64,000 nucleotides of DNA from Geminisphaera colitermitum TAV2 (GTDB lineage Bacteria > Verrucomicrobiota > Verrucomicrobiia > Opitutales > Opitutaceae): assembly GCF_000171235.2 (NCBI RefSeq), contig NZ_ABEA03000126.1:62001-126000 (forward strand), given 5' to 3'. A program made the translations under genes and the position numbers. Positions within the stretch are counted from its first letter, which is position 1. Each line of letters opens with the position of its first letter. Positions 2,997 to 53,184 of the stretch are shown here, piece after piece. Below the pieces are notes generated by a model, which had not been told where the DNA came from, did no database searches, and worked only from the letters and a program-made list of their open reading frames with translations.

Positions 2997-3013
2997 GGGG
3001 GGGGGGGGGGGGG
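2997..3013 (-). repeat. C17 tract in operon gap (mRNA strand)
   Basis: Seventeen G on the plus strand, read as C in the minus-strand transcript. It begins 16 bases after the stop of the upstream glycosidase gene and ends 19 bases before the start of the GH42-like gene. Confidence 0.95.
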
Positions 3014-12242: not shown

Positions 12243-13685
12243 ATGAATTCTTCTTCGACACATTCCGCTTTCGCCATTCGCACCACCTTTGTTCCGGCCC
12301 TGACCCTGCTGTGGCTGGTGGGCGGGGCGGCGGGGCTGGCGGTGGCGGGGGCGTTCTGGCCGGCGGCGCAGGCGGCGTGGCTGATCGCCCTTGGCGGCAT
12401 CGTGGCCTTCGCGGTGGGCGACCTGCTCTACTCATTGGGTATCGCCAGCGGCACTACGCCGCGCGTGACTGCTCCGGCGGTGGTGCGGTTTTCCAAGGAT
12501 GCGCCGGGCGACATTCCGCTGACGTTTTGTTGCGATCACGTCGGCGAAGCCCCGCCTGCCGCGCCGCGACGGTTGCGCTTTGCGCTCGGACTGTCTGGGG
12601 CGTCGTTCGTGGAAACGCAGCCGGAGTTGCTTGTCGAGTTGCCCGCAGACGCGAGGGCGGCGCGGGTGGACTGGACGTGCACCCCGACGCGGCGCGGACG
12701 TTATGCGGAGGGATTGCTGGCGTGCTGCGAAATGGTTTCGCGGCTCGGCCTGTGGCGGCTGCGCACGCGGCAGTCGGTGGCATGTGAGCTGCGCGTGTAT
12801 CCCAATCTGTTTTCGGAACGCCGTTCGCTGGCGGCACTGTTCCTCAATCGCGGTCAGGCGGGGCTCAAGGTGCAGCGCACGGTGGGGCGCGGGCGCGAAT
12901 TTGAAAAACTCCGCGACTACCTGCCCGGCGACAGTTTCGACGAGGTGCATTGGAAGGCCACGGCCAAGCGCGGGCGCGTCATCACCAAGGTGTTCCAGGC
13001 CGAGCGCACGCAGGAGGTTTATGCGGTGATCGACCTTTCGCGTCTGAGCGGACGCGAGCTTGCGCACGAGGACGGGGGGGGGGGGGGGGGGGAGGGACGG
13101 CGTCAGAGGGTGTTGACGGTGCTGGAGCGTTACCTGACGTCGGCGCTTGTGCTCATGCTCGCGGCGCGCCAGCAGGGGGACCGGTTCGGGCTGGTGGCCT
13201 ACGATGACCAGGTGCGCGTGTTCATCCGGGCGGGCAATGGCAGCGCGCACTACGCGGCGTGCCGGGAGGCGGTTTGCACGCTGGCGTCGAGCGAGGCGAC
13301 GCCCGACATGGCGGAACTGACGCGGCATCTGCGCACGGAGTTGCGCACGCGGGCGCTGCTGGTGTTTTTGTCGGATTTGAGCGACCCGGTGCTGGCCGAG
13401 GATTTTGTGCGGCAGGGGCCATTGCTGGCGCGACGGCATCTTGTCATGGTGAATCAACTACGCACGCCGGGCGTGGCGCGGCTCTTCACGGGCGGGCCGG
13501 TGGCGGCGGGCGACGACGGAGCGGTGTATGCGCGGCTGGCGGGGCATCTGCGCTGGGCCGAGGCGCAGTCGCTGGCGCGCCGGTTGAAGCCGGCGGGGAT
13601 CACGGCGGCGTTGCTGGAAAACGAAGAACTGGCGGCACAGGTGGTGGCCCAGTACATGAGCGTCAAACGGAGGCAGATTCTGTGA
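12243..13685 (+). CDS. DUF58 domain membrane protein
   Basis: A 480-residue partner of MoxR. The start MNSSSTHS is chosen because upstream codons fall in the palindromic repeat; a GTG at 12228 is also possible. Two N-terminal membrane segments (about 20-60) precede a beta-rich region and the DUF58/vWA-like part, recognised by GREFEKLRDYLPGDSFDEVHWKATA. A 19-base G run at 13074-13092 encodes a poly-Gly stretch near residue 278, within the vWA-like domain rather than a terminal tail. A length change there would truncate the protein. The stop overlaps the SpoIIM start by four bases, implying translational coupling. Confidence 0.9.
   Translation: MNSSSTHSAFAIRTTFVPALTLLWLVGGAAGLAVAGAFWPAAQAAWLIALGGIVAFAVGDLLYSLGIASGTTPRVTAPAVVRFSKDAPGDIPLTFCCDHVGEAPPAAPRRLRFALGLSGASFVETQPELLVELPADARAARVDWTCTPTRRGRYAEGLLACCEMVSRLGLWRLRTRQSVACELRVYPNLFSERRSLAALFLNRGQAGLKVQRTVGRGREFEKLRDYLPGDSFDEVHWKATAKRGRVITKVFQAERTQEVYAVIDLSRLSGRELAHEDGGGGGGEGRRQRVLTVLERYLTSALVLMLAARQQGDRFGLVAYDDQVRVFIRAGNGSAHYAACREAVCTLASSEATPDMAELTRHLRTELRTRALLVFLSDLSDPVLAEDFVRQGPLLARRHLVMVNQLRTPGVARLFTGGPVAAGDDGAVYARLAGHLRWAEAQSLARRLKPAGITAALLENEELAAQVVAQYMSVKRRQIL
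13074..13092 (+). repeat. G19 tract inside DUF58 gene
   Basis: Nineteen G in the coding strand, the longest homopolymer in the window, encoding Gly residues between DLSRLSGRELAHED and EGRRQRVLTV. Confidence 0.95.
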
Positions 13686-35056: not shown

Positions 35057-37252
35057 TTACGCCTTGGCGGGGGTGAGGCGTTCGAGGAGGAGGTCGAGGA
35101 CTTTTTCGGAGGACTGGGTGATTACTGTGCCGGGGCCAAAGATGGCGGCGGCTCCGTTCTTGAAGAGATAATCGTAGTCCTGCGCTGGGATCACTCCGCC
35201 GCAAACCAAGAGGATGTCTTCGCGGCCTAGTTTTTTGAGTTCGTCGCGGAGTTGCGGGAGGAGGGTTTTGTGTCCGGCGGCCAGCGAGCTCATGGCTACG
35301 GCGTGAACGTCGTTCTCCACGGCTTGCTTGGCGGCTTCGGCGGGCGTCTGGAAGAGCGCGCCGATGTCGATGTCGAAGCCGAGGTCGGCCATCGCAGTCG
35401 CAACAACCTTGGCGCCGCGGTCGTGGCCGTCTTGTCCGAGTTTGGCAATGAGGAGGCGGGGGCGACGGCCTTCGAGTTTTTCGAACTTGGCGATTTTTTG
35501 TTTGATGGAGTCCACGGTTTTGCTGTTGCCGAATTCTTTGCCGTATACGCCCGAAATGGAGCGGATTTGGGCTTGGTAGCGTCCAAAGTGGGTTTCAAGG
35601 GCGCTGGAGATTTCTCCGAGGGAGGCGCGGGCTTTGGCGGCAGCAACGGCGAGTTCGAGGAGGTTGCCTTTGCCGGTCTTGGCGCATTCGGAGAGGGCGG
35701 CGAGGGCGGCAGTGCAGGCGGCGTTGTCGCGTTCGGCTCGGAGTTGTTTGAGGCGTTTGATCTGGGATTCGCGGACGGCGGTGTTGTCCACTTCGAGGAT
35801 GTCGAGGGCGTCTTCGTGCGCGAGGCGGTGTTTGTTGAGGCCAACAATGGTTTCTTTGCCGGAGTCGATTTTGGCCTGGCGGCGGGCGCTGGCTTCTTCG
35901 ATGCGGAGTTTGGGTATGCCGGCTTCAATGGCTTTGGTCATGCCGCCCATTTTTTCGACTTCGTCGAGGTGAACGCGGGCTTTTTGGAGGAGTTCTTCGG
36001 TGAGGCGTTCAACGTAGTAGCTGCCTGCCCAGGGGTCGACGACGTTGCAGACGCCGGTTTCTTGCTGGAGGTGGAGTTGGGTGTTGCGCGCGATGCGGGC
36101 GGAGAAGTCCGTGGGCAGGGCGATGGCTTCGTCGAGGGCGTTGGTGTGGAGGGACTGGGTGTGGCCGCAAACGGAGGCGAGGGCTTCGAGGCAGGTGCGG
36201 GCGACGTTGTTGAAGGGGTCTTGTTCGGTGAGCGACCAGCCGGAGGTTTGCGAGTGGGTGCGGAGGGCGCGGGATTTGGGGTTTTTCGGGTTGAAGCGTC
36301 CCACGATTTCGGACCAGAGGGTGCGGGCGGCACGCATTTTGGCGACTTCCATGAAGTAGTTTTTGCCGATGGCCCAGAAGAAGGAGAGGCGGGGGGCAAA
36401 GGCGTCGATGTCAATGCCTGCGGCTACGCCGGTTTTGAGGTATTCGAGTCCGTCGGCGAGGGTGTAGGCGAGTTCGAGGTCGGCGGTGGCTCCGGCTTCT
36501 TGCATGTGGTAGCCAGAGATGGAGATCGAGTTGAACTTGGGCATGTTCTTCGAGGTGTATTCGAAGATGTCCGCAATGATCTTCATCGAGGGCGTGGGGG
36601 GGTAAATGTAGGTGTTGCGCACCATGAACTCTTTCAAGATGTCGTTCTGAATGGTGCCTGCGAGTTCGGGGAGGGTGGCGCCTTGTTCGAGGGCGGCGAC
36701 GATGTAGAAGGAAAGAACGGGTAATACTGCGCCGTTCATGGTCATGGAGACGGAGACTTTGTTGAGGGGGATGCCGTCAAAGAGGGTCTTCATGTCCATG
36801 ATGGAGTCGATGGCGACTCCGGCTTTGCCGACGTCGCCGACGACGCGGGGGTGGTCGGAGTCGTAGCCGCGGTGGGTGGCTAGGTCGAAGGCTACGGAGA
36901 GTCCGGCCTGGCCTGCGGCGAGGTTGCGTTTGTAGAAGGCGTTGGATTCTTCAGCCGTGGAGAAGCCGGCGTATTGGCGGATGGTCCAGGGTTTGGCGAC
37001 ATACATGGTGGCGTAGGGGCCGCGGGTGAACGGGGCTATGCCGGGCATGGTGTCGAGGACGGGGGGGGGGGGGAGGTCAGCAGCGGTGTAGGCGGGTTTG
37101 ACCGGGATTTGTTCGTAGGTCTGCCAGGTGTCGGCGTCGGTCGCAGCGGCGGGGGGGGGGGGGGGGGCGTCTTTGGCGCAGGTGCAGGCGCAGGCGGCGG
37201 GTTTGTCGTCGTAGGCGATTTTGGTGAAGTCGGGTGTGGAAGTGATGCTCAT
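35057..37252 (-). CDS. mutB: Methylmalonyl-CoA mutase, large (catalytic) subunit
   Basis: A 731-residue adenosylcobalamin-dependent mutase interconverting succinyl-CoA and (R)-methylmalonyl-CoA. The TIM-barrel domain (about 75-570) has [22 protein letters not shown] and the conserved [12 protein letters not shown]. The C-terminal B12-binding domain has the base-off motif DGHDRG at 608-613, SSLAAGH and GGVIPAQD. Partner of mutA. The N-terminal 65 residues are an unusual Cys/Pro/Ala-rich leader interrupted by two C runs (C17 at 37151-37167, C13 at 37061-37073) encoding Pro. At present lengths the frame is open, but any single-base change in either would abolish the enzyme. Confidence 0.96.
37061..37073 (-). 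repeat. C13 tract in mutB leader
   Basis: Thirteen G on plus, encoding Pro in [10 protein letters not shown] near residue 62. Confidence 0.95.
37151..37167 (-). repeat. C17 tract in mutB leader
   Basis: Seventeen G on plus, encoding Pro in [11 protein letters not shown] near residue 31. Confidence 0.95.
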
Positions 37253-37399: not shown

Positions 37400-39379
37400 T
37401 TAGAGGGCGCCGGTTTTTTTGAGGAGGGCGCTGAGGAGGCCGTAAACGTTGGAGCGGATGTGGAGGAATTCGTCCACTCCGGCTTCTTTGAATTGGGCCA
37501 CGAGGGTTTCGTCGGCAGGGAGGCCGGCGAGCATCACGGTGGTGTTGGGCGCAGCGGCTTTGACGGCCTTGGCAAAGGGCGGGACGAGGGCCGGATAGGT
37601 GTCGTCTGTGGAGCAGATGACGGTGATGGGTGCGCCGGATTTGACGGCGGCAGCGGCGGCGGCTTCAGGGGTGTCGAAGCTTTCTTTCATGAGGCATTCG
37701 AAACCGGCGGTGGCTACGAAGCCGGCAGAGAAGTCGGCGCGCATTTTGTGCTGAATGACGGGGCCCATCTTGGCGAAGAAGATTTGCGGGGCTTTGCCGG
37801 TCTTTTGTTTGTGAGCGGCAGAGGCGGCGCGGAGGGCTTCGAATTGCGAGGCGGCGCGGGCAAAGGTGATCGGTTTGATCGCGTCAACTTTCGCAGCGTT
37901 GCAGGCGGTGGCTTTGGCGTCGGCGGTCTTGGTGCAGCAGGCGGCGGGCGCGAGCGGCGTTTCCTTGAGGTTGGGGAAGAGGTTGGTGCCGATGATGCCG
38001 GAGCGGCGTTTGGCAATGGCGTCGAGTTTGTCGGCGGCGGCTTTGGCAACGAGGTCTTGCGGGTAGCCAGCGCGGAGGGCGGCGGCGTGTCCGCCTTTTT
38101 GTTCGATGTCTTGGAAGAGGGTCCAGGCTTTGCGGCCGAGTTCGTCGGTGAGTTTTTCAACGTACCAGGAGCCGCCTGCGGGGTCGGCAACTTGGGTGAA
38201 GCTGAATTCTTCGGCGAGGAGGGTGTGGACGTTGCGGGCAATGCGACGCGAGAAGGTGTCGGTCTTGCCGGAGAGTTCGTCGAAGGGTGCGATGTTGAGG
38301 CTGTCCACGCCGCCGAGGACGGCGGAGAGGGCTTCGGTGGTGACGCGAAGCATGTTCACGTTGGGGTCGAGGCGGGTTTTGTTCCACCAACTGGTGGTGG
38401 CGTGAACGGCGGCTTTGGCGGCGAGTTCGGGCGCGGCTCCAAAGGCGGTGAGGACGCGGGTCCAGAGGGGGCGGAGGGCGCGGAATTTGGCGACTTCGGT
38501 GAAGAATTGCGGGCCGATGGCGAGGGTGAAGCGGATGCGGGCAGCAGCGGTCTCAATGGCGACGCCGCGTTTGAGGAGGGCGCGGAGGTAGTCGGTCGCA
38601 GAACTGAGCGCGAGGGCGAGTTCTTGCACGGCGGTCGCTCCGGCGTGGCCCCAGGGGGCGGCGTTGACGCTGATGGTCTTGAGCGTGGAGGGGGGGGGGG
38701 GAGCGTCCTTGGTCCAGGCGGCGAGGGCGTCGTAGAGTTTTTCGAGGTCGGCGGGAAGGGCTCCGGAGGCGGCCCAGTGGGCGAGGGGGTCGGCGGCGAT
38801 GGAGCCGGTGAGTTTGGCCGGGTCGATGCCTTGGTCGGCGGCGAGCGCGAGGTAATCGGCGGCGAGGCGGGTGGCGTCGGGGCTGGGGGCAATGTGCACG
38901 GGGATGTGCGCGAGGGAGACGCCAGCGAGTGCGGTGGCGAGGTCGGCTTTGGTTGCGATGTCGAGGCCGCAGCAGGGGCAGGCGGCGGAGGTGGTGAGGG
39001 AGACGCTGTCCTGGCCGTTGTTGAGGGCGTCGAGGAGGGTGGTGTTAAATTCGGCGGGGGTGGGGGCAAAGAGGTCTTGGGCGAATTCCCAAGGTTGGTC
39101 TTTGTAGCCTTTGGCGCGGGTGCCGCGGAGGTAGGGGGCCTGGCCGGGGGCGGTGTTGAGGGCCGGAATGCCGGCGAGGTCGGAGCGCGTGTAGAGCGGC
39201 TGGAGGGCGATGCCTTCAGGCGTGCGGGTCACGAGTTTTTTCTCGAAGGGAACGCCTTTGAGTTCGGCTTCGACGACTTTTTTCCAGCGGGCGTAGGCGG
39301 CTTGGAGGGCGTCGTCGGGCGAGGGCGATGCGGTTGCGGTGTCTGCGGCGGCAGTGGCGGTGTCTTTCACGGTGGTCAC
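37400..39379 (-). CDS. mutA: Methylmalonyl-CoA mutase, small subunit
   Basis: A 659-residue homologue of the mutase barrel and B12 domain that acts as the non-catalytic partner of mutB. The barrel core is clear (LYTRSDLAGIPALNTAPG, PWEFAQDLF, VTTEALSAVLGG). The C-terminal domain lacks DxHxxG and has only KMGPVIQHKMRADF, as expected for the small subunit. A 12-base C run (38690-38701, G on plus) encodes Pro in KDAPPPPSTL near residue 228. A Cys-rich stretch (PAACCTKTADAKATAC) lies in the interdomain linker. It is first in the operon, 147 bases before mutB, with the hairpin element between. Confidence 0.94.
   Translation of the reverse strand: MTTVKDTATAAADTATASPSPDDALQAAYARWKKVVEAELKGVPFEKKLVTRTPEGIALQPLYTRSDLAGIPALNTAPGQAPYLRGTRAKGYKDQPWEFAQDLFAPTPAEFNTTLLDALNNGQDSVSLTTSAACPCCGLDIATKADLATALAGVSLAHIPVHIAPSPDATRLAADYLALAADQGIDPAKLTGSIAADPLAHWAASGALPADLEKLYDALAAWTKDAPPPPSTLKTISVNAAPWGHAGATAVQELALALSSATDYLRALLKRGVAIETAAARIRFTLAIGPQFFTEVAKFRALRPLWTRVLTAFGAAPELAAKAAVHATTSWWNKTRLDPNVNMLRVTTEALSAVLGGVDSLNIAPFDELSGKTDTFSRRIARNVHTLLAEEFSFTQVADPAGGSWYVEKLTDELGRKAWTLFQDIEQKGGHAAALRAGYPQDLVAKAAADKLDAIAKRRSGIIGTNLFPNLKETPLAPAACCTKTADAKATACNAAKVDAIKPITFARAASQFEALRAASAAHKQKTGKAPQIFFAKMGPVIQHKMRADFSAGFVATAGFECLMKESFDTPEAAAAAAVKSGAPITVICSTDDTYPALVPPFAKAVKAAAPNTTVMLAGLPADETLVAQFKEAGVDEFLHIRSNVYGLLSALLKKTGAL
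38690..38701 (-). repeat. C12 tract inside mutA
   Basis: Twelve G on plus, Pro codons within the barrel domain. Confidence 0.95.
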
Positions 39380-40124: not shown

Positions 40125-41678
40125 ATGGCAATCGACCCCGCACTGCTGGAACGACTCCGTAAACATCGCGAAATCGCCCTCAACGGCGGTGGCGCGGACA
40201 AACTCGCGGCGCGCCGCGCCAAGGGCCTGCTCACGGCTCGCGACCGCATCGACGCGCTCTTCACGCCCGGCACCTTTATGGAGTCCGGCATGCACGCGCA
40301 GCACCAAGCCACGCACTTCGGCATGGCTGACAAAGTGCTCCCCTGCGACGGCGTCATCACTGGTGTTGGCCACATTGATGGCCGCCCCGTGGCCGCTTAC
40401 GCCCAAGACTTTACGGTCGGCGGCGGATCGCTCGGCCAAATCCACGCCAAGAAAATTTGCGACGCCATGGAATACGCCATGGAAGCCGGCATGCCCGTCA
40501 TCGGCATCAACGACTCCGGCGGCGCGCGCATTCAAGAAGGCGACGACGCCCTCTCCGGTTACGGCCAAATCTTCTTCAAGAACGTGCTCCTCTCCGGTGT
40601 CGTTCCCCAGATTTCCATCATCGCCGGCCCCTGCGCCGGTGGTGCGGCCTATTCGCCCGCGCTGACGGACTTCATCATCATGACGAAGAAGAACGCCCAG
40701 ATGTTCATCTGCGGCCCCGACGTCATCAAGGCCGCCACCGGCGCCACCGTCACCATGGACGAAGTCGGCTCGGCCCAGGCCCACGCCTCCGTCTCGGGCA
40801 ACATCCACTTCATCGCCGAGGACGGCCCCGATGCCTTCCGCATCGCCCGCAAACTCCTCTCGTTCCTCCCGTCCAACAACATCATGGACCCCCCGCACCA
40901 GCCGACGCCCTCCATCTCGCTGGAACCGGACCCGCGGATGAACGAACTTGTGCCCGCCGACCCGAAGGCTCCCTTCGACGTGCACAAGGTCATCAGCTAC
41001 CTCGTGGACGAAGGCGACTTCCTCGAAGTGCAGCGCGACTTCGCCAAGAACATCGTCGTCGGATTTGGCCGCATCCAAGGCATCGTCGTCGGCATTATCG
41101 CTAACCAGCCCGCGTTCAAAGCCGGCTGCCTCGACATTGACTCCTCGGACAAAGCCGCCCGCTTCATCCGTTTCGCCAACATCTTCAACATTCCGATCGT
41201 CAACCTCGTTGACGTCCCCGGCTTCATGCCCGGCGTGGCCCAGGAACGCGGCGGCATCATCCGCCACGGCGCCAAGATGCTCTTCGCTTACGCTGCCGCC
41301 ACTGTGCCGAAGATCACCGTCATCATGCGCAAAGCCTATGGCGGTGCCTACCTCGCCATGTGCTCGCGCGACCTCGGAGCCGACCTCGTTTACGCCTGGC
41401 CCTGCGCCGAGATCGCCGTCATGGGTGCCGAAGGCGCGGCCAACGTTCTCTTCAAAAAAGAAATCTCCGCCGCCGCTGATCCGAAGGCCAAGGCCGCCGA
41501 ACTCGCCGCCGAATACCGCGAAAAATTCGCCTCGCCCTACGAAGCCGCCAGCAAGGCCATGATCACCGACATCATCGAACCGGCGCAGACCCGCGCCGTC
41601 GTCTCGATGGCCCTGCGCAACACGCTCAGCAAACGCGAGACCCGTCCGCCCAAGAAGCACGGCAACATCCCGCTCTAA
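40125..41678 (+). CDS. mmdA: Acyl-CoA carboxyltransferase (methylmalonyl-CoA decarboxylase alpha / transcarboxylase 12S type)
   Basis: A 517-residue carboxyltransferase of the MmdA/PccB/12S family. It moves the carboxyl of methylmalonyl-CoA to or from biotin, yielding propionyl-CoA. The two crotonase-like halves are recognisable. The N half has GINDSGGARIQEG and the oxyanion segment GPCAGGAAYSPA. The C half has DVPGFMPGVAQERGGIIRHGAKMLFAYA and KAYGGAYLAM. No biotin or biotin carboxylase domain is fused. The neighbours (OadG-like, biotin carrier, OadB-type pump, 5S-type subunit) point to a sodium-pumping decarboxylase, a transcarboxylase, or both. Confidence 0.94.
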   Translation: MAIDPALLERLRKHREIALNGGGADKLAARRAKGLLTARDRIDALFTPGTFMESGMHAQHQATHFGMADKVLPCDGVITGVGHIDGRPVAAYAQDFTVGGGSLGQIHAKKICDAMEYAMEAGMPVIGINDSGGARIQEGDDALSGYGQIFFKNVLLSGVVPQISIIAGPCAGGAAYSPALTDFIIMTKKNAQMFICGPDVIKAATGATVTMDEVGSAQAHASVSGNIHFIAEDGPDAFRIARKLLSFLPSNNIMDPPHQPTPSISLEPDPRMNELVPADPKAPFDVHKVISYLVDEGDFLEVQRDFAKNIVVGFGRIQGIVVGIIANQPAFKAGCLDIDSSDKAARFIRFANIFNIPIVNLVDVPGFMPGVAQERGGIIRHGAKMLFAYAAATVPKITVIMRKAYGGAYLAMCSRDLGADLVYAWPCAEIAVMGAEGAANVLFKKEISAAADPKAKAAELAAEYREKFASPYEAASKAMITDIIEPAQTRAVVSMALRNTLSKRETRPPKKHGNIPL

Positions 41679-42382: not shown

Positions 42383-42787
42383 ATGAACAAAAAACTCCGC
42401 GTCACCGTTGAAGGAAAAGCCTACGAAGTCCTCGTCGAGATCCTCGAAGAGGGCAAACCGTCCGCCGCTCCGGCCCCCGCTCCCGCAGCCGCGCCCGCTC
42501 CTGCCGCCTCCGCTCCTGTAGCGGCCCCTGCCGCCGCTCCCGCCGCCGCCAAGGCCGCCGCTCCCGCGGCTGGCGCAGGCGACGTGCCCAGCCCGCTCGC
42601 CGGCAAGCTCGTCTCGATCGACGTCAAAGTCGGTCAGGCCGTCAACGAAGGCGACCAAGTGGCCACCATCGAAGCCATGAAGATGAACACCTACATCTTC
42701 GCGCCCCACGCGGGCAAAGTCACCACCGTCTTCGCCAATCCCGGCGACGGCGTCGAGGAAGGCGCTCCCCTCCTCCGCATCGAATAA
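42383..42787 (+). CDS. mmdC: Biotin carboxyl carrier protein of the decarboxylase/transcarboxylase
   Basis: A 134-residue carrier. The N-terminal beta hairpin (KKLRVTVEGKAYEVLVEIL) is followed by an Ala/Pro hinge (about 26-66) and a biotinyl domain (67-134) with the biotinylation site Lys100 in EAMKMN. It shuttles carboxyl groups between the 12S/MmdA-type and 5S-type transferases and the membrane pump. Lys100 must be modified by the biotin ligase encoded at 44983-45800, which appears split in this sequence. Confidence 0.95.
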   Translation: MNKKLRVTVEGKAYEVLVEILEEGKPSAAPAPAPAAAPAPAASAPVAAPAAAPAAAKAAAPAAGAGDVPSPLAGKLVSIDVKVGQAVNEGDQVATIEAMKMNTYIFAPHAGKVTTVFANPGDGVEEGAPLLRIE

Positions 42788-43343: not shown

Positions 43344-44648
43344 ATGACATTTCAAAACATTCTCGATATATTCCAAGGCGTCACGACTCTCATTGAGTCC
43401 CCCACGCCCATCCTGATCGCCCGGATCGGACTGATTTTCCTCGGCATGCTGCTTGTTTACCTCGGCAAGAAAGGCACGCTCGAACCCCTCCTCATGATCC
43501 CGATGGGCCTGGCCATGTGTGCGGTCAATGCCGGCGTCCTCTTCCTCGACCCCACCACTGCCGGCCACATCGTGCACGGCAGCGCCGCGCTGGCCGACCC
43601 CGTTGCCCAGCAGCAACTCGCCGACACGGCCGCCGCCGGCCAGATGCACGGCACCCTCTTCATGTCGCCCCTCGTCGAGGACCCCAGCCGCCTCATGGGG
43701 CTCATGCAGATCGATTTCCTCCAGCCGATTTTCAACTTCGCGTTCAGCAACAACCTCATCGCCTGTCTCGTGTTCATGGGCATCGGCGTTCTGCTCGACG
43801 TTGGCTTCGTTCTGGCAAGGCCCTTCCTCAGCATCACGATGGCTCTCTTCTGTGAACTCGGCACCATCGTCACCTTCCCCATCGCGGTCGCCATGGGCTT
43901 CACCTATGGCGAAGCCGCCTCCATCGCCCTCGTCGGCGGCGCGGACGGTCCCATGGTTCTCTTTGCCTCGCTCTCCCTGGCCAAGGATCTTCTCGTTCCC
44001 ATCACGGTCATCGCCTACCTCTACCTCGGCCTTGTTTACGGCGGTTATCCGTATCTCATCCGCGCCTTGATTCCGGCCAAGCTCCGCGGCCTGCGCATGC
44101 CCGCCCGCCCGATCACAAAAATCACTTCTGGCGAAAAACTCGCCTTCGCCGTCGTCGCCTGCACCGTGCTCTGCCTGCTGTTTCCCTCCGCCGCGCCGCT
44201 CTTTTTCTCCCTCTTCCTTGGCGTCGCCGTCCGCGAAGCCGGCTTGAAGGTGTTCTCCAGCATGATCGAAAACGTGCTCCTCTACGGCGCCACGATGTTC
44301 CTCGGCCTGCTCCTCGGCATCCTCTGCGAAGCCGCCACCATCCTCAACCCCAAGGTCATTCTCCTCCTCATCCTCGGCATCCTCGCCCTCCTCCTCTCCG
44401 GTGTGGGCGGCATCATTGGCGGTTATTGCGCTTACTTCTTTAGCGGACGCAAAATCAACCCCGTCATCGGCATCGCCGGCGTGAGTTGCGTGCCCACCAC
44501 CGCCAAGGTGGCGCAAAAGGAAGTCAGCCATGTCACTCCCGACGTGATCGTCCTCCCCGAGGCCCTCGGCGCCAACATCTCCGGCGTCATCACCACGGCC
44601 ATCCTTACCGGCATCTATGTGACGCTTGTCCCACTGCTCTCGCAGTGA
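43344..44648 (+). CDS. Sodium-translocating decarboxylase beta subunit (OadB/MmdB type)
   Basis: A 434-residue polytopic membrane protein that decarboxylates carboxybiotin and exports sodium ions. Family landmarks are LIARIGLIFLGMLLVYLG, the NFAFSNNLIACLVFMGIGVLLD helix, the essential-Asp segment GGADGPM (Asp201) and the C-terminal GIAGVSCVPTTAKVAQK followed by LPEALGANISGVITTAIL. About ten membrane segments are visible. The stop overlaps the next small membrane ORF by four bases. Confidence 0.95.
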   Translation: MTFQNILDIFQGVTTLIESPTPILIARIGLIFLGMLLVYLGKKGTLEPLLMIPMGLAMCAVNAGVLFLDPTTAGHIVHGSAALADPVAQQQLADTAAAGQMHGTLFMSPLVEDPSRLMGLMQIDFLQPIFNFAFSNNLIACLVFMGIGVLLDVGFVLARPFLSITMALFCELGTIVTFPIAVAMGFTYGEAASIALVGGADGPMVLFASLSLAKDLLVPITVIAYLYLGLVYGGYPYLIRALIPAKLRGLRMPARPITKITSGEKLAFAVVACTVLCLLFPSAAPLFFSLFLGVAVREAGLKVFSSMIENVLLYGATMFLGLLLGILCEAATILNPKVILLLILGILALLLSGVGGIIGGYCAYFFSGRKINPVIGIAGVSCVPTTAKVAQKEVSHVTPDVIVLPEALGANISGVITTAILTGIYVTLVPLLSQ

Positions 44649-44986
44649 GTCATGCGGACGCAGGCCAAGACCGCCTGACAAACGTGAACGCCTTCCGCAC
44701 CAACTCCACCGCCTGGATCATCGGCATCACTGCCGCGGTGGGCGGGGCATTGATGGTGCGATTGGTCAGCCCTGCGCTCGCGCCCGACCATGCCCGTCTG
44801 GCGGCGGTCATCTCGGTTGCCGGACACCTGCTGGCCCTCATCGGGCTCGCCACGATCTGCATCGGCGTCAGCCGTCGCCTGAAACGCGAAAACGCCCGCG
44901 ACGCCGCAGCGGCAGCGGGCGACTCCGAAGCAGGGGAAACGCTCGTCGTCCCCGAAATCACCCCGCCCAAGCGCCCCGAAAAATGA
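44645..44986 (+). CDS. Small two-helix membrane protein, unknown function
   Basis: A 113-residue protein. GTG at 44645 overlaps the OadB stop (GTGA); a GTG at 44684 is an alternative. Two hydrophobic segments (AWIIGITAAVGGALMVRLV and AAVISVAGHLLALIGLATIC) are followed by a charged tail. Its own stop overlaps the biotin ligase ATG (ATGA), so three genes are translationally chained. No family is recognised. Context suggests an accessory subunit of the sodium pump or simply a coupled passenger. Confidence 0.65.
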   Translation: MSHADAGQDRLTNVNAFRTNSTAWIIGITAAVGGALMVRLVSPALAPDHARLAAVISVAGHLLALIGLATICIGVSRRLKRENARDAAAAAGDSEAGETLVVPEITPPKRPEK

Positions 44987-45513
44987 CATCGCTTGTCGCA
45001 GCCCCTCCCTCTCCGCCCTCAGTGACGCTCGATGGCTGGACGCTCCACACCGCCGCCACCGTCCCGTCCACCAACCCCATTGCCGGCAAACAATTCTCCG
45101 CCTGGCACGCCCTCCGCGCCCTCACGCAAACCGCCTCCTACGGACGTACCGGACGCTCCTGGACCTCCGACCCCGGCGGACTCTGGCTCTCGGCCAATCT
45201 CCCCTGTCCTGCGACCACCCCCGCCGAACGCGCCCGCTGGGCCATCCTGCCGCTTGCCGCTGGCTGGGCCGTGATCGACGCCCTCACCGCGCTTGGCGTT
45301 ACCGGCCTCCGCCTTCGCTGGCCCAACGACATCATGACCGGCTCGCGCAAACTCGCCGGCCTCCTCGTCGAGCGCTTCACCCCCGACACCGTCACCGTCG
45401 GCATCGGCCTCAACCTCACCAACTCCCCCGAACACGCGCACCCCGCCCTTGCCGGCACCACCGCCCGGCTGGCCGACTTGCTGTTTCCCTCCCCCCCCCC
45501 CCCGAGCAAATGA
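44983..45513 (+). CDS. birA: Biotin--protein ligase, catalytic part (frame broken at C13 tract)
   Basis: A 176-residue N-terminal portion of a biotin--[acetyl-CoA carboxylase] ligase, which activates biotin to biotinyl-AMP and attaches it to the carrier lysine. Seen motifs: VPSTNPIAG, QTASYGRTGRSW and GGLWLS (biotin-binding loop, variant of GRGRRGR), LRWPNDIM, KLAGLLVE and VGIGLNL. The frame ends at SPPPPSK just after a run of 13 C (45491-45503). The missing C-terminal domain follows in the next frame at 45510. Fourteen (or eleven) C would fuse both into a protein of about 272 residues, normal for the family. Confidence 0.85.
   Translation: MTSLVAAPPSPPSVTLDGWTLHTAATVPSTNPIAGKQFSAWHALRALTQTASYGRTGRSWTSDPGGLWLSANLPCPATTPAERARWAILPLAAGWAVIDALTALGVTGLRLRWPNDIMTGSRKLAGLLVERFTPDTVTVGIGLNLTNSPEHAHPALAGTTARLADLLFPSPPPPSK
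45491..45503 (+). repeat. C13 tract splitting birA
   Basis: Thirteen C at the domain junction of the biotin ligase; one added C restores a continuous frame. Confidence 0.95.
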
Positions 45514-45800
45514 CGCGCCTCTTGCTCGCCGCCCTCCGCCGCGCGCACACGACCATCCTCGAACACGGATTCGCCCCCATCGCCGACGCCCTCAACGCCA
45601 CTTGGTCGCTCAACCCCCGCCGCGTCCGCATCACCCTTGCTCCCGCGCTTGGCGGCGCCACGCACGAAGGCCATTTTCACGGCGTTGATGACACCGGACG
45701 CTTGCGACTCACCTTTGACGGCGAAACCACGCCCCGTTACTACGAAGCCACCCAGATCGAACTCCTCCGCGAACAACCGGACCCAGCCAGACAATGCTGA
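45510..45800 (+). CDS. birA: Biotin--protein ligase, C-terminal part
   Basis: A 96-residue ORF whose ATG overlaps the stop of the catalytic part (ATGA). Its sequence matches the end of the ligase: LLLAALRRAHTTILEHGF (helix after the catalytic core), ALNATWSLNPRRVRITL and the SH3-like domain HFHGVDDTGRLRLTFDG ending YEATQIELLRE. It could be made as a separate coupled polypeptide, be joined by slippage, or be an assembly artefact of homopolymer length. Confidence 0.8.
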   Translation: MTRLLLAALRRAHTTILEHGFAPIADALNATWSLNPRRVRITLAPALGGATHEGHFHGVDDTGRLRLTFDGETTPRYYEATQIELLREQPDPARQC

Positions 45801-46005: not shown

Positions 46006-47532
46006 ATGTCCACGACCAAAACCACCACCAAGCCCTCGCCCGTTGTCTTCAACAACACCGTCCTCCGCGACGGACACCAATCGCTGGCCGCCACGCGCAT
46101 GACCACCGCGCAGATGCTGCCCGCTCTCGCCGACCTCGACGCCATGGGCTTCGGCGCCCTCGAAACCTGGGGCGGCGCCACCATCGACTCCGGCCTCCGC
46201 TTCCTCGACGAATTTCCCTTCGACCGCCTCGACGCCATCAAGAAGGGCACACCGAAGACCCCGCACATGATGCTCCTCCGCGGCCAGAACATCGTGCAAT
46301 ACGAGAACTTCCCGGACGACGTCGTCGAAACCTTCGTCAAAATGTCCGCCAAGCACGGCATGGACATCTTCCGCATCTTCGACGCCCTCAACGACCCCCG
46401 CAACATCCAGACCGCCGTCAAAGCCGTCATCGCCGCTGGCAAGCACGCTCAAGGCGTCATCTGCTACACCACCTCGCCCGTCCACAACGTCGAAGGCTTC
46501 ATCAAACTCGGCCTCGAACTCGAAAAGATGGGCTGCCACTCCATCTGTCTCAAAGACATGGCCGGCCTCGTCCCCCCCGCTGACGCCGCCGCCATCATCG
46601 GCGGACTCAAGGCCAAGGTAAAAATCCCCGTCATCCTCCACACACACGAAACCGCCGGACTCGGCATCCCCACTTACCTGGCCGCCGTCAACGCGGGCGT
46701 TGACGCCATCGACTGCTCCATCACGCCCTTTGCCAACGGTACCGCCCAACCGGATACACTCCTCATGATGGCCGTCCTTCAGGGCAACCCGCGCCAGCCC
46801 AACTACGACAAGGAACGCCTCGCCAAACTCCGCACCCACTTCGAAAAAGTTTACGGCGAACTCAGCAAATTCACCGGGCGCAAAAACGAAGTCATCGACG
46901 TTGACACCCTCACCTACCAGGTCCCCGGCGGCATGTTGTCCAACTTCCGCACCCAGCTCAAAGACCTCAACATGGAGGACCGCTTCGAGGAAGTCTTCGC
47001 CGAGATTCCCGTCGTTCGCAAAGCCCTTGGCTGGATTCCCCTCGTCACGCCCACTTCGCAAATCGTCGGCACGCAAGCCGTGCTCAACGTGAAGTTTGGA
47101 CGCTGGAAAAACTTCGCCCCCGCCGCGATGGACATCGCCCTTGGTTACTACGGACGCACTCCTGCGCCCGTCGATCCCGAGGTGCAGGCCCTTGCCGCCA
47201 AGAACACCGGCAAACCTGTCATCACCTGCCGTCCCGCCGATCTCAAGAAACCGCGCATGGCCGAACTCAAGGCCGAACTCCGCAAGGCCGGTCTCCCCGA
47301 CGACGACGAACACGCCGTGATTCACGCCATGTTCCCCATGCAGTTGAAGGAGCACTACGACCGCAAAAAAGCCCCCCCCCCCCCCCCCGCTGCCGCGCCT
47401 GTCACGGTCTCCACGCCCGCGCCCGCTGTGAAACCCGCCGCCATTCCGGCTGTTCTTCCCACCGGAGCCACCCGTTACGCTCTTACGGTCAACAGCCACC
47501 GAGTCGAAGTCGTGGTCGAAGAACTCTCCTAA
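46006..47532 (+). CDS. Transcarboxylase 5S / OadA-type carboxyltransferase
   Basis: A 508-residue biotin-dependent carboxyltransferase of the pyruvate/oxaloacetate branch. The DRE-TIM barrel has NTVLRDGHQSL (Asp22), Lys183 in CLKDMAGL (the carbamylated metal ligand of the family), and His212 and His214 in LHTHETAG. The second domain has YQVPGGMLSNF. After a 17-base C run (47372-47388) the tail ends ATRYALTVNSHRVEVVVEEL and stops, where OadA proteins continue into a biotinyl domain. It therefore needs the separate carrier at 42383-42787. It would transfer carboxyl between carboxybiotin and pyruvate/oxaloacetate. Confidence 0.9.
   Translation: MSTTKTTTKPSPVVFNNTVLRDGHQSLAATRMTTAQMLPALADLDAMGFGALETWGGATIDSGLRFLDEFPFDRLDAIKKGTPKTPHMMLLRGQNIVQYENFPDDVVETFVKMSAKHGMDIFRIFDALNDPRNIQTAVKAVIAAGKHAQGVICYTTSPVHNVEGFIKLGLELEKMGCHSICLKDMAGLVPPADAAAIIGGLKAKVKIPVILHTHETAGLGIPTYLAAVNAGVDAIDCSITPFANGTAQPDTLLMMAVLQGNPRQPNYDKERLAKLRTHFEKVYGELSKFTGRKNEVIDVDTLTYQVPGGMLSNFRTQLKDLNMEDRFEEVFAEIPVVRKALGWIPLVTPTSQIVGTQAVLNVKFGRWKNFAPAAMDIALGYYGRTPAPVDPEVQALAAKNTGKPVITCRPADLKKPRMAELKAELRKAGLPDDDEHAVIHAMFPMQLKEHYDRKKAPPPPPAAAPVTVSTPAPAVKPAAIPAVLPTGATRYALTVNSHRVEVVVEELS
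47372..47388 (+). repeat. C17 tract in 5S-subunit linker
   Basis: Seventeen C encode Pro in [12 protein letters not shown] near residue 458, before the short C-terminal beta segment. Confidence 0.95.
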
Positions 47533-51837: not shown

Positions 51838-53184
51838 TCATCGCTCAAGCAGATCGGACGCCGCCCCATCGCTTGGGGCGACGGGAGGTGCAACCGGCAG
51901 CGCACTCAAATCCTCAAACTCCAGCTTCACGACGAGCACCGTGTTCGCGTGTTCATTGACCGGCAGACCACGCAGGCGCAGGCAACGCGTCTGGTCCGCG
52001 TGTTCCGACGGCACCATGTCGATCTCCCACGCCACCGGCCCGCCTGTGTTGAGCAACGTTGCCCGCCGTGGAGCGATCGCCAGTGGTTTGAGTTTCACGC
52101 CCGAATGTTCCGGGTCGCGGTACAGGTGGACATAGAGCGTATTGCCTTTTCCGCTACCGCTGCGCGTGAGCAGCACGTTGCGATTATCCGTCAGGTGCGA
52201 CGCAGGCGCCACACCATCGAATGCCTCCCGCATCCTGCGATACCATTTGCCGATCCGACGCAAAATTGCGACCGTCTCCGCCGGGATCGTGCCGTCGGGA
52301 CGCGGCCCGATGTTGAGCAGATAGTTGGCATCACGCGCCAGAAACTTATCGATGCTTCGTAGCAAGTGCCGGTCCGTGTAATAATCCTCGTCCACGCGCC
52401 AGCCCCATGCCTCGCGTCCGATTGACTGGCATGCCTCCGTGCGCCGGGCGAAGTGCAGGCAACCGTCCATGTCATCGTAATCGCGCTCCGGAGTGCCGAA
52501 ATCGCCCTCGTCGTAACCGCGATCATTCACCACGGCCAGCGGCTGCAATTTGCGGATCATGGCGTTGACCGACGGGTCGATGTGTTTGTCCACATTCATG
52601 TCCCACCAGATGCCGTGGATCGTCCCGTAGTTCGTGCACAACTCGCGCACTTGCGCCTTCAGATAGCCCACATAACGCGCCAGGTCCGGTTCATCTCCGG
52701 CCTGCGGCGGGAGTTCGTGGTGACGTCCCTGATTCGGATAATTCTTCTGATGCCAGTCCGCCACCGAGTAGTAAAGACACAGCGGCATTCCGCGCCGGTG
52801 GCATGCGTCTGCGAACTCCCGCACGATGTCGCGCCCGAACGGCGTGTTCATCGTGTTGTAATCGGTGGTATCCGTTTTCCAGAGACAAAACCCGTCGTGA
52901 TGTTTGGTCGTGAGGCACACGTAGCCCGCGTCCATTTCCTCCGCGAGATCGAGCCATGCCTCGGGATCGAAGCGGGTGGGATTCCATTGCCTGGCGAGTT
53001 TTTCGTATTCGCTGCGTGGCACGCGTCGCCGCCACTGTTCCTGTTCGTGCCAGCCATTGATGGCGTAGAGCCCCCAATGCAAAAACAGCCCAAGCCGCCG
53101 TTGAAACCACCAGTCGCGCCCATCGCCAAACCGGGGCGCGAGGGCAGGGGAGGGGGGGGGGGGGGGGGGCGCTGATTGCGGCAT
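51838..53184 (-). CDS. Alpha-L-fucosidase, GH29
   Basis: A 448-residue retaining alpha-L-fucosidase. The catalytic barrel has RLGLFLHWGLYAINGWHEQ, LTTKHHDGFCLW and the nucleophile Asp195 in GIWWDMNVD; DANYLLNIGPRPDG is typical of GH29. ATG 53184 is chosen; a GTG at 53229 is in frame. An 18-base C run (53152-53169, G on plus) starts five codons after this ATG and encodes Pro 6-11, so its length decides whether the enzyme is made. No signal peptide follows the Pro run. The GntR-type regulator gene lies just upstream on the same strand. Confidence 0.93.
   Translation of the reverse strand: MPQSAPPPPPPSPALAPRFGDGRDWWFQRRLGLFLHWGLYAINGWHEQEQWRRRVPRSEYEKLARQWNPTRFDPEAWLDLAEEMDAGYVCLTTKHHDGFCLWKTDTTDYNTMNTPFGRDIVREFADACHRRGMPLCLYYSVADWHQKNYPNQGRHHELPPQAGDEPDLARYVGYLKAQVRELCTNYGTIHGIWWDMNVDKHIDPSVNAMIRKLQPLAVVNDRGYDEGDFGTPERDYDDMDGCLHFARRTEACQSIGREAWGWRVDEDYYTDRHLLRSIDKFLARDANYLLNIGPRPDGTIPAETVAILRRIGKWYRRMREAFDGVAPASHLTDNRNVLLTRSGSGKGNTLYVHLYRDPEHSGVKLKPLAIAPRRATLLNTGGPVAWEIDMVPSEHADQTRCLRLRGLPVNEHANTVLVVKLEFEDLSALPVAPPVAPSDGAASDLLER
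53152..53169 (-). repeat. C18 tract at codons 5-11 of fucosidase gene
   Basis: Eighteen G on plus, C in the coding strand, near the very start of the frame. Confidence 0.95.

Follow-up and report, generated by a model that had tools for sequence, protein, structure and literature searches.

A biotin ligase gene split at a run of 13 C in Geminisphaera colitermitum TAV2, a genome rich in long C/G homopolymers

The window analysed here, a 64,000-nucleotide stretch of the genome of Geminisphaera colitermitum TAV2, a termite-gut-type bacterium, contains a biotin protein ligase gene that is broken at a homopolymer of 13 C residues, which raises the question of whether the run is a selected switch, an incidental lesion or an error in the assembled sequence. 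The first-pass annotation had proposed that tract length could switch the sodium-pumping propionate module in whose operon the ligase lies.

The homopolymer (45491-45503, plus strand) follows a T at 45490 in the upstream context CCCT, which is typical of TAV2 tracts. The first open reading frame (ORF; 44983-45513, plus strand, 176 aa) ends with a TGA stop at 45511-45513, and the second (45510-45800, plus strand, 96 aa) begins with an ATG at 45510-45512, such that stop and start overlap as ATGA. The proposed split exactly at C13, with its ATGA overlap, was thus confirmed from the sequence and its ORFs. The 5’ piece carries the motifs GRTGRSW, RWPNDI and KLAGLLVE for biotin binding and catalysis, as well as the catalytic-domain signature of biotin protein ligases, matching TIGR00121 (birA_ligase; E-value 2.7e-23, model positions 3-135 of 235) and Pfam BPL_LplA_LipB (E-value 2.9e-8). 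The C-terminal domain is absent from this catalytic chain and is encoded in another frame. There, the 3’ piece displays weak similarity to ligase C-terminal regions (PRK06955, E-value 1.7e-4; BPL_C, E-value 0.015, a match below the cut-off). Within the 96-aa piece, the BPL_C match does not start until residue 37, so the end of the catalytic region is probably encoded there as well. Hence, of the suggested division into a catalytic and a C-terminal half, the two pieces stand and the clean domain boundary does not. Changing the run from 13 C to 14 or 11 joins the frames into a product of 272 aa, as predicted, compared with 273 aa in strain TAV5, and the length and base composition of C13 are typical of slippage sites. 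As in a contingency locus, repeat length sets the frame here, with C13 located exactly at the frame break.

TAV5, a same-genus genome (G001) for which the published account gives a chromosome of 7,317,842 bases (PMC4358385), served as the reference for ortholog comparisons. Its ligase ortholog is a single intact ORF of 273 aa from the ATG, passes the TIGR00121 cut-off (90.9 versus 83.1 bits), and has ordinary sequence at the tract site; the C run is thus absent from TAV5, the sole relative compared at the base level. Since the TAV5 ortholog is continuous, the two TAV2 pieces represent one gene. The upstream part is 80% identical to TAV5 over 147 codons with a dN/dS of 0.23, and the downstream part is 64% identical over 87 codons with a dN/dS of 0.35. 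Judged from these ratios, purifying selection is still acting on both halves, and the downstream half is estimated to have been constrained through most of the time since divergence from TAV5. Because both halves are constrained, the break should be recent, reversible or a miscall.

Second biotin ligases were found in 12 of the 57 genomes searched, TAV2 included, and coordinate comparison places an OAD_beta gene next to the second ligase in nine of these 12 (TAV2 and eight relatives). Nine second-ligase homologs in relatives, including that of TAV5, align with most of the TIGR00121 model in one frame with no stops, and among the copies seen whole the gene is broken only in TAV2, at the homopolymer. 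The neighbourhood in the window is of the same kind as in relatives and consists, all on the plus strand, of a carboxyltransferase subunit (40125-41678; PF01039, E-value 2.9e-183), a biotin carrier protein that is the probable ligase substrate (42383-42787; PF00364, E-value 3.7e-17), the beta subunit of a Na+-transporting decarboxylase immediately upstream of the ligase (OAD_beta, 43344-44648; PF03977, E-value 2.7e-106), and an HMGL-like/PYC_OADA carboxyltransferase subunit assigned by profile matches (46006-47532). Given the recurrent adjacency to OAD_beta and the shared neighbours, it is a fair inference that the ligase is dedicated to its module. The split gene therefore looks like a second biotin ligase serving a methylmalonyl-CoA decarboxylase-like operon, and the first-pass link between the ligase and the operon of its biotin carrier holds. 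Searching the TAV2 genome for another full-length birA, as had been envisaged, returned an intact, HTH-bearing copy at G000:C207, encoding a BirA of 395 aa with HTH_11, BPL and BPL_C domains, which is one half of what the first-pass annotation had said would refute its proposal. The gene beside it is nadC-like, as named from its sequence, and contains the longest run seen (23 bases, G000:C207:69762-69784). This run is in frame and coincides with 21 bases that are extra relative to TAV5.

The C13 run has a great deal of company. C/G runs of at least 12 bases number 1,165 in the TAV2 genome (5.67 Mb), versus five in TAV5 and 0-28 in other relatives, and the next-highest count in a sample of 388 Verrucomicrobiota genomes is 89; the runners-up in this sample, G380 and G121, have 80-89 long C/G runs. 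Base-level analyses covered 1.27 Mb of the 5.67 Mb of TAV2 and about 0.8 Mb of TAV5. In the 1.27 Mb, assuming independent bases, 411 runs of at least 9 were seen versus 42 expected, 263 of at least 12 versus 1.2 expected, and 222 of at least 13 versus 0.4 expected. C13 is thus far above chance for independent bases, yet ordinary within the TAV2 genome. C/G run lengths form an extended shoulder between about 8 and 17, whereas A/T runs end at 10, and di- to hexanucleotide repeats display no clear excess in TAV2 over TAV5. Examples of long C/G runs in the window are found at 2997-3013, 13074-13092, 37151-37167, 47372-47388 and 53152-53169, and housekeeping genes, such as nadC and those of both methylmalonyl-CoA mutase subunits, also carry long runs. 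Tracts are therefore not confined to a few loci, as would be expected of contingency loci, but are spread genome-wide. Other strains were sought by a genome-contig scan, which may omit the window’s own genome, and the sole match was to a distant Pseudoalteromonas.

A T precedes 83% of the C runs of at least 12, versus 28% of runs of three; the two bases ahead of this T are usually C, and no conserved motif was found around the tracts beyond this CCCT context. The ortholog-flanked tracts mostly have their C on the coding strand. In 17 alignments with TAV5, by our own count, seven tracts replace sequence without net length change, eight show a net gain and two a net loss. Slippage explains the net gains; the replacement cases suggest that C has taken the place of interruptions in C-rich stretches, slippage-linked (dislocation) substitution being one conceivable route. 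Simple expansion does not predict replacement, and these seven of 17 tracts therefore weaken an account based on slippage expansion.

The correctness of the assembled tract lengths was assessed by frame and placement. Of the 17 tracts of at least 12 bases that are flanked on each side by orthologous protein, 15 are in frame against TAV5 ORFs, at lengths of up to 23 bases, versus the one third expected by chance (P = 4.5e-6). The two exceptions are the split ligase and a thiamine-phosphate-synthase-like gene. In the latter, the frame is lost relative to the TAV5 ortholog at a run of 13 (G000:C110:6698-6710). Among shorter runs, one of 9 (G000:C220:1797-1805) puts a regulator gene out of frame; the TAV5 counterpart of this gene has periplasmic-binding-like and AraC-type HTH domains. 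Four further tracts in neighbouring propionate genes are all in frame. Around the ligase, the ortholog frame test places in frame a C17 at 47372-47388 in the HMGL-like subunit gene, a C12 on the coding strand (38690-38701, minus strand) of a methylmalonyl-CoA mutase subunit gene (37400-39379), and a C13 on the coding strand (37061-37073, minus strand) of the adjoining mutase subunit gene, with another C17 at 37151-37167. That 15 of 17 tracts are in frame indicates that assembled lengths are mostly right and that frame is selected. When the ortholog comparison was repeated with trimmed genes, 13 tracts of at least 12 were in frame and one was shifted; the ligase was not scored as shifted in this set. 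A frame caller based on codon usage placed 54% of tracts of at least 12 in frame, and an earlier version 67%; this caller has an error of its own of about 10% on short runs and crosses gene junctions, and the ortholog test was therefore preferred.

Within conserved genes, runs of at least 9 fall inside in 17 cases and at the edges in 52, compared with 83 and 94 for control runs of 5-6. This depletion of interiors has an odds ratio of 0.37 (P = 0.0015; P = 0.046 for runs of at least 12). In addition, a run of at least 8 is located at 10 of 64 complete-contig ends, versus 0.9% of random windows (17 times chance). Together, the in-frame excess, the interior depletion and the contig-end runs favour real tracts of mostly correct length. 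The residual error rate is high enough to make a single-site miscall at the ligase a serious alternative. The in-frame excess rules out an artefact in which C is inserted in random numbers. The frame test is blind to an artefact that overwrites bases at constant length; the depletion in conserved interiors argues against it.

Mismatch repair was considered as a source of the runs. The MutL C-terminal domain is present in 16 of 17 near-complete genomes searched, with the TAV2 assembly as the exception, where contig C11 ends within the proline-rich linker of mutL (G000:C11:39797-40871). The missing domain may be an assembly gap; downstream of mutL, synteny offers no guide, in that the TAV5 neighbour gene has no match in the TAV2 assembly. 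MutS is intact in TAV2 (G000:C222:1060-3627). It is encoded by a single frame of 904 codons and matches its model in two stretches, with low similarity around model positions 372-404. The general microsatellite change of a mismatch-repair mutator was not found, since the excess is restricted to C/G mononucleotide runs, and general mismatch-repair loss was rejected as a sufficient cause given the lack of clear excess among longer repeat units. Tentatively, and with more doubt than confidence, we suggest that a mutational process peculiar to this lineage and operating on CCCT-flanked, C-rich stretches could have made the approximately 1,165 tracts, partly by base replacement, and that these would be unstable and would stochastically switch or truncate many proteins, central enzymes included, in individual cells.

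For the ligase itself, we give roughly even credence to the explanation that the broken gene is an incidental, mutation-driven slippage site caught out of register and not a selected switch. A stretch within a variable segment of this operon-dedicated gene would have turned into pure poly-C in the TAV2 lineage, as at more than 1,000 other sites. Poly-C/G tracts elsewhere change length often by strand slippage, and C13 would be expected to do likewise. On this view, the assembly would have captured the run while it was out of register, so that the catalytic fragment is truncated and the second ORF is unlikely to be translated. With the main BirA intact, the cell could bear the loss of the ligase, and slippage would readily reverse the break. 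We infer, then, that C13 is unstable, the break reversible, loss of the ligase tolerated and the assembled length of 13 correct. A sequencing or assembly miscall, in which the true run length differs and the gene is intact, is a substantial possibility, although we consider it short of even. Calling the length of long C/G runs is difficult, as the excess of contig ends at such runs attests, and a miscall rate on the order of two in 17 would explain the ligase break without any biology. Both ligase halves are constrained, and the thiamine-phosphate-synthase-like gene, which holds the other out-of-frame tract of at least 12, is also unlikely to be dispensable. The calls appear generally good, however, with comparable tracts of up to 23 bases nearly all in frame.

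The incidental slippage site also has to be weighed against readings in which the break has a function or is final. It is very unlikely that C13 is a selected contingency locus whose length toggles the dedicated ligase and hence the sodium-pumping propionate module, as first proposed. Length and composition fit phase variation, the ligase is operon-dedicated and its downstream half is constrained, but the TAV5 ortholog has no tract, an intact BirA is encoded elsewhere, and comparable, mostly in-frame runs abound, housekeeping genes included, and the proposal is not supported. The tract probably slips, and phase variation in that weak sense is possible. We regard as highly improbable a fixed pseudogene, in which ligase function is gone for good and the gene decays under cover of the main BirA: the frame is broken and a backup exists, but no other lesion was found in the gene, both halves are constrained, the neighbouring operon genes are intact, and the neighbours that bear tracts are in frame. 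We assign the lowest probability to expression of the gene as it stands, be it as a two-chain ligase through re-initiation at ATGA or as a full-length product through transcriptional or ribosomal slippage on C13. The overlap and the intact downstream ORF are in keeping with it, whereas inspection shows just GAG before the second ATG and poly-C offers no Shine-Dalgarno sequence, the gene is a single ORF in TAV5 and other relatives, and the break lies ahead of the final portion of the catalytic region.

Taken alone, the broken ligase would be a lesion that the cell can tolerate, given its backup gene. What the break exposed is the genome richest in long C/G homopolymers among the sampled members of its phylum, and this genome-wide excess is of more interest than the break. 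If the runs are real and unstable, TAV2 would be a natural case for studying the forces that promote and restrain the growth of homopolymers, the means by which a bacterium copes with slippage sites in such a large number of genes, and a possible part played by MutL loss. TAV5, of the same genus and almost run-free, is a ready control.

The TAV2 gene resembles the Group I (mono-functional, no HTH) biotin ligases located by decarboxylase operons in having the TIGR00121/PF03099 region, no HTH and adjacency to OAD_beta; unlike the copies of relatives, it is broken at a homopolymer. With the poly-G/C contingency genes of Campylobacter, Helicobacter and Neisseria it has in common a long intragenic C/G run whose length flips the frame, whereas TAV2 runs of at least 12 number about 1,165, are mostly in frame and, in ortholog-flanked genes, are chiefly coding-strand C. 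Mismatch-repair-deficient mutators have unstable mononucleotide runs, and in TAV2 G/C runs are likewise affected and the MutL C-terminal domain is missing from the assembly; TAV2 differs in that dinucleotide and longer microsatellites, as well as A/T runs, are unexpanded, MutS is intact and mutL is cut by a contig end. Within the same phylum, long homopolymers have been proposed to serve phase variation in Akkermansia muciniphila, in which 17 genes have runs over 8 (PMC3048395). TAV2 shares such long homopolymers and has well over a thousand of them.
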